Source: Deltaproteobacteria bacterium (GTDB lineage: Bacteria > Myxococcota > Myxococcia > Myxococcales > 40CM-4-68-19). From it: 40,051 bases of DNA. The notes under the pieces are model-generated. The model saw only the letters and a list, made by a program, of their open reading frames with translations, ran no database searches and was not told where the DNA came from. Each line of letters starts with the position of its first letter. Positions within the stretch are counted from its first letter, which is position 1. The DNA lies in contig VBLC01000080.1 in NCBI GenBank assembly GCA_005879315.1, positions 1 to 40,051 of the forward strand, written 5' to 3'. A program made the position numbers and the translations under genes. Shown here piece after piece: positions 28,828 through 34,214 of the stretch.

Positions 28828-29376
28828 TCAGAAGCCCGGGGCGGGGTACTCGGCTACGCCGAGGACGGTATTGGCCTGCAGCGACTCCTGGTATTCGTAG
28901 TTCCCCGACATCGCGCCGACCGTGCCGTCGTCCGTGCCACAGTCGTGGGTGGCGTCGCCAAAACCGGGGAACATGCCGCAGACGTAGAAGGTCAGCTGGT
29001 CGGAGGCGTCGACGCTGTAGCGGTAGCGCAGCTTGATGTTGCCTTCCGGAGGGAAGGGCATGTCCACCCAGCCGTGACCGGCGTTGGACCATTGTCCGCC
29101 GGGGCCAGGCACGCTGGCGGGGTTCCAGGCGCTCACCCGGCCCGCGTGGGACATGTCGAACCCGCCCGGGTTGGCGAAGTAGTTCGACTGGTCATTGTAG
29201 ATGTTCATGAAGTACTGGCGGACCTTGTTCAGCACGACGTTCACTTCGGTGCGGTGGGCGCGCGCCGTCGTCTTCAGATAGAAGGGGATGGCGATGCCGC
29301 TGATGATGCCGAGGATCATCACGACCAGCATGACCTCGACCATGGTGAAACCGCGGCTCCGGCGGGCGTTGCGCAT
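28828..29376 (-). CDS. Type IV pilin-like protein
   Basis: This 182-residue prepilin has a short basic leader ending in Gly, then FTMVEVMLVVMILGIISGIAIPFY: cleavage G-F, N-methyl-Phe and Glu5 of mature pilins. The remaining globular domain has a Cys pair (YVCGMFPGFGDATHDCG) that could close a short D-loop. Expected to be processed by PilD and inserted into a type IV pilus or type II secretion pseudopilus; neither set of genes is present here, so it is a lone pilin. ATG 29376 is chosen since the longer reading adds 12 residues outside the leader type. It lies 49 bp downstream of dinB on the same strand. Confidence 0.9.
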   Translation of the reverse strand: MRNARRSRGFTMVEVMLVVMILGIISGIAIPFYLKTTARAHRTEVNVVLNKVRQYFMNIYNDQSNYFANPGGFDMSHAGRVSAWNPASVPGPGGQWSNAGHGWVDMPFPPEGNIKLRYRYSVDASDQLTFYVCGMFPGFGDATHDCGTDDGTVGAMSGNYEYQESLQANTVLGVAEYPAPGF

Positions 29377-29425
29377 GGCCTGATTGTGGGGCCCCGCGAC
29401 CTCGGGCTGCAAGTCTTTGGGTGCC

Positions 29426-32332: not shown

Positions 32333-32494
32333 TCAAGGAACCGTCGGTCCCGCCGTGCTCCGCCCGCGGAAGAATCCAAGCACGAAGAGGATGAGGCCGG
32401 CGATCAGCGCGAGGTGGATGACGCCGGACGTCACCTTGAAGGCGAGGCCGATGACCCAGAGCACGATGAGCAATGCGCCGAGGAACCAGAGCAT
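32333..32494 (-). CDS. Lmo0937-type 53-aa membrane protein
   Basis: Read from the complementary strand: MLWFLGALLIVLWVIGLAFK followed by a second hydrophobic segment VIHLALIAGLILFVLGFF and a short polar tail. The two-helix pattern matches the small lmo0937/DUF5670 membrane-protein family, of unknown function, often stress-induced. A perfect AGGAGG lies 7 bases before the ATG. The gene lies downstream of the cNMP-binding protein on the same strand (93 bp gap). Confidence 0.8.
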   Translation of the reverse strand: MLWFLGALLIVLWVIGLAFKVTSGVIHLALIAGLILFVLGFFRGRSTAGPTVP

Positions 32495-32587: not shown

Positions 32588-33253
32588 TCAGTTGAGGTCG
32601 ATGCGCTGGATGGCGTGGTACGGCACCACCGTCAGCTTGTCGTCCTCCAGCTTGAGCACGACGGTGTAGCCCGCGGCGTGGTGGTCCATCTGGAGAATGC
32701 GCCCCGAGACGCTGGTGTCGCCGCTCAGATGCAAGGTCACCTGCCGCAGGTCCTCGGCCATCGTCTTGAGGTTCAAGGTGTGCGCGCCGGTGGCCTCGAT
32801 GCCGAAGGCGACCGCCTCGCGGTAGAGCTCGTTGGTGGTGCGCAGGCGAGCAGCAACGATGCCGGCCATGTTGCGGAAGAAGGCGGCGGCGATGTCCGGC
32901 CGCTCCTCCTGGACGCGGGCGAAATTCTGCCGGGAGAGGACGAGAAACTCGCTCGACTCGGTGGTGCGCGCGGTGGCCGAGCGGCGCGCCCCGTCGATGA
33001 AGCTCATCTCGCCGATGACGTCGCCGGGGCCGAAGGAGGCGAGCGACCGATCGACTTCGCCGCGGATGTTCTTGAAGATGTCCACCCGCCCGCTCTGCAC
33101 GATGAAGAGCGAGTCGCCGGCATCGTTCTCGTGGAACAGCTCTTCGCCGGCGTTGAGGTTCCGCTCCTCGCAGGCCCGGAGCACGACCTGCGCCTCGTCG
33201 GAGGAGAGCCCGGCGAAGAGGTGAGAGCGGTTGAGCCTGTCTTCGTCGTTCAT
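32588..33253 (-). CDS. Cyclic-nucleotide-binding protein with possible Sm/Hfq-like C-terminal domain
   Basis: Residues ~8-120 form a CRP-type cNMP-binding domain, including GDVIGEMSFIDGARRSATA, where Glu82 and Arg91 match the phosphate-binding cassette. There is no helix-turn-helix for DNA binding. Instead, after a helical linker, residues ~168-221 read QVTLHLSGDTSVSGRILQMD, then VVLKLEDD and VVPYHAIQRIDL. This resembles the Sm fold of Hfq (V-S-x-x-L...G-x-I...V-x-L-K...Y-K-H-A-I). It should therefore not be called a CRP/FNR transcription factor. It lies 43 bp after the ketopantoate-reductase family gene on the same strand. The Sm assignment is from pattern reading only. Confidence 0.8.
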   Translation of the reverse strand: MNDEDRLNRSHLFAGLSSDEAQVVLRACEERNLNAGEELFHENDAGDSLFIVQSGRVDIFKNIRGEVDRSLASFGPGDVIGEMSFIDGARRSATARTTESSEFLVLSRQNFARVQEERPDIAAAFFRNMAGIVAARLRTTNELYREAVAFGIEATGAHTLNLKTMAEDLRQVTLHLSGDTSVSGRILQMDHHAAGYTVVLKLEDDKLTVVPYHAIQRIDLN

Positions 33254-33296: not shown

Positions 33297-34214
33297 TCAC
33301 CCGAGCTGGGCCCAGAGGATCAGCCCTGCGTAGATGGCCCGATGGACGGGGGTCGGAACTCCCTGCCGCTCGCCCCGGCGGACGACGGCGCCGCTCAGCC
33401 ACTCCAATTCCAGCGGCCGGCCGCGCAGGAGATCCTGCGCCATCGAGGAGAGCATCGCCGGCGGAAAGGAGTCGACCAGCTGCAGCTGCGCGTCGGCGAA
33501 GTCGTCGGGCAGCGCCGCGCCCTCGGCGCGGGCCACCGCTGCCGCCTCGCGCAACGCTTCGTGCAGGAGAGCGCGGGTGGCGGGCTGCGAGCGAACTTCG
33601 CCGATCGGCTTGCGGGTCAGCGCCGTCAGTCCGCTCACGGCGGTGAGGAAGACGAACTTTTCCCAGGTGACGCGGCGGATGTCCTCGCTCAGGATCGTCT
33701 CGACGCGCGCCCCCTGCAACGCTTCGACGATCTTCCCCAGCCGCTTGCTGCGCGATCCGTCGAGCTCGCCCAGCGTCACGCGCGCGAGCTTGCCGGTGTG
33801 CGCGATCACGCCCGGCTCCGCGACGACGACGCCGATGTGCGTGACGCCGCCGATGACGTGCTCGCCTCCGACCGCGCGCGAGAGGATCTCGTCCTTGTCG
33901 ACGCCGTTCTGCAGCGAGACCGCCGTGGTCGTCGGCCCGATCATCGGACCCAGCGCAGCCGCGGCCTTCTCCGTGTCCCAGAGCTTGACGGCGAGCACGA
34001 CCAGATCGACCTGACCCACCTGCGCGGGATTCTCGAAGACCCGCACAGGCTGGAGGTGCGTGTCGCCCAGCTCGCTTTTGACGCGCAGGCCGTTCTTGCG
34101 CATCGCCTCGCCGTGCGCGCCGCGGGCGATGAAGGAGACCTCGTGCCCGGCCTGGGCCAGGCGGCCGCCGTAGTAGCCTCCCACCCCGCCGCTGCCCATC
34201 ATGGCGATCTTCAT
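33297..34214 (-). CDS. 2-dehydropantoate 2-reductase (ketopantoate reductase family)
   Basis: This 305-residue NADP-dependent enzyme has GSGGVGGYYGGRLAQAGHEV at the N-terminus, VVLAVKLWDT, SLQNGVDKDE and the catalytic-Lys region RRVTWEKFVFLTAVSGLTAL. The C-terminal domain has DLLRGRPLELEWLSGAVVRRG, matching the PanE/ApbA substrate-binding segment. PanE reduces ketopantoate to pantoate for CoA synthesis, but bacteria often carry several paralogues with other 2-oxo-acid substrates, so I do not give a gene symbol. Start ATG 34214 is one base after the stop of the CBS gene, so the two are coupled. Confidence 0.9.
   Translation of the reverse strand: MKIAMMGSGGVGGYYGGRLAQAGHEVSFIARGAHGEAMRKNGLRVKSELGDTHLQPVRVFENPAQVGQVDLVVLAVKLWDTEKAAAALGPMIGPTTTAVSLQNGVDKDEILSRAVGGEHVIGGVTHIGVVVAEPGVIAHTGKLARVTLGELDGSRSKRLGKIVEALQGARVETILSEDIRRVTWEKFVFLTAVSGLTALTRKPIGEVRSQPATRALLHEALREAAAVARAEGAALPDDFADAQLQLVDSFPPAMLSSMAQDLLRGRPLELEWLSGAVVRRGERQGVPTPVHRAIYAGLILWAQLG

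Follow-up and report, generated by a model that had tools for sequence, protein, structure and literature searches.

A cyclic-nucleotide-binding protein with a predicted Hfq-fold domain in the place of the helix-turn-helix, and its candidate link to PilT-type pilus motors

The locus and the nucleotide-binding half of the fusion protein

The window (the whole stretch of 40,051 nucleotides that was analysed) carries on its minus strand, at 32588..33253, a gene for a protein of 221 amino acids plus stop, in which a cyclic-nucleotide-binding domain (cNBD) is joined to a small C-terminal domain of predicted Hfq fold. This open reading frame is a genuine gene: it begins with ATG, its codon-position composition is that of a real gene (GC3 0.94), and relatives were found over the whole length of the protein, ten at 56–85% identity and ten more at 32–43%. 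On the same strand and 43 bases upstream lies panE/apbA (33297..34214, minus strand), a ketopantoate reductase gene with ApbA and ApbA_C domains, which stands outside the mechanism proposed below. Downstream of the fusion gene, a short open reading frame (32333-32494, minus strand) encodes a hydrophobic membrane protein of 53 amino acids, a counterpart of which adjoins the fusion gene at another locus (L097). The neighbourhood also contains a gene for a prepilin-like protein (28828-29412, minus strand) with the type IV pilin N-terminus RGFTMVEVMLVVMILGIISGIAIPFY, and a similar pilin gene is present in the corresponding neighbourhood of L003, L004, L095 and L097.

The sequence-only reading had assigned the N-terminal half to the cNMP-binding domains with an intact phosphate cassette, and this assignment held. 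Residues 31-116 (32906..33163, minus strand) match the cNMP_binding family PF00027 with an E-value of 1.3e-21 and a score of 76.8 bits, above the curated cut-off of 27.5, and their best Foldseek matches belong to the CRP family, CRP-type proteins being the closest solved relatives of this part by both sequence and fold. Within the phosphate-binding cassette, residues 81-93 (GEMSFIDGARRSA; 32975..33013, minus strand), G81, E82, R91, S92 and A93 align with G71, E72, R82, S83 and A84 of E. coli CRP. The cassette positions are nearly invariant among the 21 aligned family members (E82 kept in 20 and R91 in all 21), and each nucleotide-holding residue is retained in at least 18 of the 21, apart from the position of CRP S128.

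The long C-helix (residues 119-149; 32807..32899, minus strand), which is helical in the model and aligns with that of E. coli CRP, is probably the dimer helix. Its residues R136, T140 and N141 sit at the positions of CRP R123, T127 and S128, whereby the threonine is kept in 20 of the 21 members and the S128 position is occupied by N in 15, T in 5 and S in 1. The window's genome has eight matches to class III nucleotide cyclase domains and is thus equipped to produce the ligand. The nucleotide sensed is most likely cAMP.

The protein thus shares with the CRP/CAP family the cNMP-binding domain, the E, R, S/T and A residues of the cassette, and the equivalents of R123 and T127 in the C-helix. 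In contrast, where the CRP/CAP proteins have a helix-turn-helix DNA-binding domain, by which the CRP/FNR regulators are recognised, the fusion has the Hfq-fold domain. No helix-turn-helix was found after the C-helix, either in the models, where one helix is followed by an all-beta domain, or among the families of the Pfam search.

The C-terminal domain and its resemblance to Hfq

The C-helix leads into a presumably flexible linker with an 'EATGA' motif (residues 148-161; 32771..32812, minus strand), whose confidence in the full-length model is low (pLDDT <50), yet whose sequence is conserved in relatives. The full-length AlphaFold2 model, built from the 21-sequence alignment, has a mean pLDDT of 80.9 and places one helix and then five strands after this linker. 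A fold search with the full-length model returned CRP-type structures only, because the larger domain filled the list, and the tail was therefore folded and searched alone. Folded from an alignment of 18 tails, it reached a pLDDT of 83 with the same order of a helix and strands beta1 to beta5; the helix spans residues 162-167 and the strands residues 171-176, 180-192, 195-201, 207-211 and 215-220, with a short turn at P-Y-H-A joining beta4 and beta5.

All of the best 50 Foldseek matches of the tail model in the PDB are Hfq, with 4nl3 at the top (E 3.6e-4, TM 0.77). With VIA-align, all 50 matches listed were likewise Hfq (Z from 9.7 to 10.9), the best being Synechocystis Hfq 3hfo (Z 10.9, rmsd 3.2 over 64 residues), while Anabaena Hfq 3hfn reached a Z of 9.8; since scores up to 1 Z below the top count as ties, this ranking does not single out cyanobacterial Hfq as especially close. 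On the level of sequence, the tail and Hfq share only about 20% of their residues. Of 13 tails, 9 match Pfam Hfq (best E 1.6e-4) and 7 match Hfq_1, and in whole-genome scans with Pfam Hfq the fusion tail was the best match in three genomes (G022, G023 and G686). The tail of the window scores 13.8 bits with Pfam Hfq (PF17209), below the gathering cut-off of 27, and the fusion tails stay under this cut-off in the genome scan and wherever scores were given. The profile search of the tail against the PDB was topped by ankyrin-repeat DARPins, which were discarded as an artefact: their scores sum over many repeats with poor individual E-values and cover profile positions 2-30 only. With such repeat proteins set aside, Hfq takes the top places, the first of them being Anabaena Hfq 3hfn (E 0.0032), which is among the best full-length matches in a single stretch.

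An hhalign comparison of the 18 tails with eight Hfq sequences gave a score of 33.4, whereas 200 column shuffles averaged 10.1 (sd 2.3) with a maximum of 17.8 and the reversed alignment scored 11.2, so that the resemblance to Hfq is above chance. Four of the eight Hfq sequences came from loci found in this analysis (one of them a second Hfq-like gene) and one from a cyanobacterial locus; the remaining three were those of E. coli, B. subtilis and S. aureus. By sequence profile and predicted structure, it is nearly certain that residues 162-221 (32591..32770, minus strand) adopt the Sm/Hfq fold of a helix and five strands. The sequence-only reading had described an all-beta tail of about 52 residues, resembling the Sm1 and Sm2 motifs of Hfq, in the place of the helix-turn-helix. 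Both the replacement and the resemblance are borne out by profiles and predicted structure, which returned an Sm barrel; the domain itself is slightly longer, at about 60 residues.

The Sm1-like motif (residues 172-184, VTLHLSGDTSVSG; 32702..32740, minus strand) aligns with V22-G34 of E. coli Hfq, and the Sm2-like motif PYHAI (residues 211-215; 32609..32623, minus strand) replaces the YKHAI of Hfq. Contrary to the prospect, raised together with the original proposal, that no homologue would show these motifs, V172, L176, G184 and D190 of the first and P211-Y-H-A-I215 of the second are conserved across relatives with whole-protein identities as low as 32%. Among the 18 tails, the structural G34 of Hfq (G184) is invariant, the D40 position holds D or E in 16, H57 (H213) is kept in 17, and A58 in 16. 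In comparison, the positions of Hfq that contact RNA have changed. The Sm2 pattern Y/F-K/R-H-A-I of Hfq retains only its H, A and I, with Y55 replaced by P and K56 by Y212 in all 18 tails. The basic rim of Hfq is missing, with R16 replaced by I, A, S, G or V and R17 mostly by E or T, and the position of the distal-face Y25 is variable, while an aromatic residue or H occurs near the position of F42. These positions were mapped by hhalign and strand register; as the beta2-beta3 loop differs in length, the F42 position is the least certain of them.

Compared with the canonical Hfq of E. coli, S. aureus and Listeria, the tail has in common the helix and five strands, G34 and D40 of Sm1, and H57-A58-I59 of Sm2, but it has no counterparts of R16, R17, K56 and Y25, its loop ahead of strand 3 is longer by about four residues, and its score falls under the Pfam cut-off. 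Overall, this is the pattern of an Hfq fold without canonical RNA-binding chemistry, as far as can be judged from the residues. The proposal that a second-messenger sensor is coupled to an RNA-binding module thus stands as to the coupling with an Hfq-type module and is not supported as to RNA binding, since R16, R17, K56 and Y25 are unconserved.

Distribution and pairing with PilT/PilU-family genes

The fusion is present in all seven sampled genomes of the window's genus. Outside the genus it turned up in four Geobacter-like genomes, in a further Myxococcota genome (G013) and, sporadically, in other deltaproteobacterial classes; a search of five genomes from four other listed genera of the window's family did not detect it. 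The tail profile had no match among 398 genomes from the phylum to which a gammaproteobacterial MAG belongs, a result of little weight on its own, and in a plasmid search the whole protein gave cNBD matches only and the tail none. Ordinary Hfq was not detected by the Pfam Hfq scan in the window's genome or in two others of its genus (G022 and G023), so that the role of an sRNA chaperone would be vacant there. Two Geobacter-like genomes (G195 and G197) carry ordinary Hfq besides the fusion, which means that the fusion is no substitute for it in these organisms. One of them, G197, has in addition a second, divergent Hfq-like gene (L111, G197:C135), which scores 45.5 bits, above the Pfam cut-off.

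In nine genomes, the fusion gene lies on the same strand as a gene for a type 4a pilus ATPase of the PilT/PilU family, at a distance of no more than about 55 bases. The PilT gene comes first in five of them (L002/L094, from the window's genus, L006, L007, L008 and L092), and the sensor gene comes first in the other four (L083, L084, L085 and L120). The five partner ATPases that were scored reach 425-469 bits with TIGR01420 (NCBIfam) against a cut-off of 319. With about 12 type IV pilus ATPase matches per genome, an immediate adjacency that recurs in three lineages, with either gene first, greatly exceeds chance, which we roughly estimate at about 0.5% per locus. In the Geobacter-like group (for example at L006:4462-5946), and likewise in L002, the match to the PilT family is preceded by about 125-130 additional N-terminal residues of the partner, to which no Pfam family corresponds.

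The pairing is not universal. No PilT gene lies beside the fusion gene in the window, and in the window's genus the pair occurs in only one of seven genomes, which counts against a PilT partnership. In one other class, no PilT gene occurs in the stretch read for six of nine members (L086-L091), with the stretch of L086 ending about 450 bases upstream of the gene; the same is true of the stretch read for the second Myxococcota relative (L093). A tblastn search with the PilT of G020 detected no PilT remnant in the window or in ten neighbourhoods. The closest PilT relative in the window's genome (on G000:C58) is 52% identical and falls in a sister clade to the adjacent PilTs. A single-origin operon is not supported, as the adjacent PilTs do not form one clade in the PilT tree.

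Proposed function and alternative readings

From the pocket residues, the predicted fold, the lost RNA-binding residues and the gene pairing, we infer, at a probability of roughly one half, that the fusion is a cAMP-responsive regulator of PilT-type motors with an Hfq-fold docking or ring module in the place of the helix-turn-helix. A CRP-type sensor would have lost its helix-turn-helix and acquired an Hfq-fold domain in that place. It would bind cAMP in the CRP-type pocket and dimerise through the C-helix as CRP does, while the Hfq-fold domains would form a ring or serve as a docking surface for a PilT-type ATPase. Nucleotide binding would then alter the engagement of the ATPase, in one direction or the other, and the second messenger would thereby tune pilus retraction directly rather than via DNA. 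It is the pairing with PilT genes in relatives, together with the loss of the RNA-binding residues, that points to the pilus motor and not to RNA as the target. The stand-alone cNBD gene directly ahead of another PilT-like gene in the window's genome, described below, speaks for the same reading.

Such an engagement would parallel the binding of Synechocystis Hfq to the C-terminal domain of the assembly ATPase PilB1; hfq mutants of this organism are non-motile and have no pili (PMC7690835, PMC4390875). Cyanobacterial Hfq is reported to lack the key RNA-binding residues, to have very low affinity for RNA, and to act with PilB and EbsA on pili (PMC10989914). The fusion tail resembles it in fold, in not keeping the RNA-binding residues, and in its link to type IV pilus ATPases. 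The two differ in that the tail is the C-terminal domain of a nucleotide sensor, that its gene partner is of the PilT/PilU and not the PilB type, and that the K56 position holds Y instead of K or R. Moreover, cyanobacterial Hfq contacts the extension ATPase via a C-terminal zinc-finger-like domain specific to PilB1, which counts against the parallel with PilT. A bolder version, in which an Hfq-type ring, gated by cAMP, clamps hexameric PilT or docks onto it as a collar, and the binding of pilus motors is recurrent for Hfq-fold domains in Cyanobacteria and deltaproteobacterial lineages, is tentative and has, in our view, less than even odds. In that case the fusion would represent a second-messenger effector of a new class, through which cAMP acts on pilus retraction directly at the protein level.

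That the protein is instead an Hfq ring binding RNA under cyclic-nucleotide control, an equivalent of CRP at the post-transcriptional level in bacteria without ordinary Hfq, seems rather unlikely. The Hfq fold, the retention of H57, the acidic residue at D40 and the aromatic residue or H near F42 would suit such a role, as would the vacancy in the window's genus and the report that M. xanthus, a myxobacterium, has no hfq homologue (PMC5684412); against it stand the loss of rim R16 and R17, of K56 and of the distal-face Y25, and the presence of ordinary Hfq in G195 and G197. We consider it quite unlikely, though conceivable, that the Hfq-fold domain is a module for oligomerisation or protein docking whose partners vary by lineage, with the PilT link as one lineage-specific use. 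Many members without a PilT neighbour, and adjacent PilTs that are not one clade, speak for it, but PilT pairings that arose independently in three or more lineages, with either gene leading, are difficult to account for if the family had no shared function.

Least of all do we credit a convergent likeness to Hfq of some other small beta-barrel, such as a PRC or SH3-like domain, which would be highly improbable despite the low identity to Hfq and a weak match of PRC_RimM to 4 of 13 tails (best E 4.7e-4). A PRC-barrel identity was dropped because Hfq matches more tails and with a better E-value; the best 50 structural matches are all Hfq and not LSm or SH3-like barrels, and the signature of G34, D40 and H57-A58-I59 is common to the tail and Hfq.

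The established role of CRP-type sensors is mostly in the control of transcription, and that of Hfq mostly in chaperoning RNA. Both halves of the fusion are of known kinds, and their combination is a new variant, of which we found no description in the open-access literature on Hfq/Sm proteins, cyclic-nucleotide-binding domains and PilT. If the fusion does regulate PilT-type motors, cAMP would have an outlet other than transcription, through a conserved protein encoded beside pilus motor genes, and the part that Hfq plays in cyanobacterial pili would have a counterpart in other bacteria. The fusion also puts an Hfq-fold domain into relatives of the myxobacteria, for which no hfq homologue has been reported (PMC5684412).

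Some further arrangements of sensor and PilT-family genes were observed. At L083 and L084, two tandem PilT-family genes stand behind the sensor gene and a response-regulator gene before it, and at L083 a histidine kinase gene lies ahead of the latter; this suggests a two-component input to the same operon. The window's genome contains, at L023:421-2031 (G000:C9), a stand-alone cNBD protein whose gene directly precedes that of a PilT-like ATPase, as in the sensor-first fusions; unlike the fusion, this protein ends after the C-helix and has no Hfq-fold domain.
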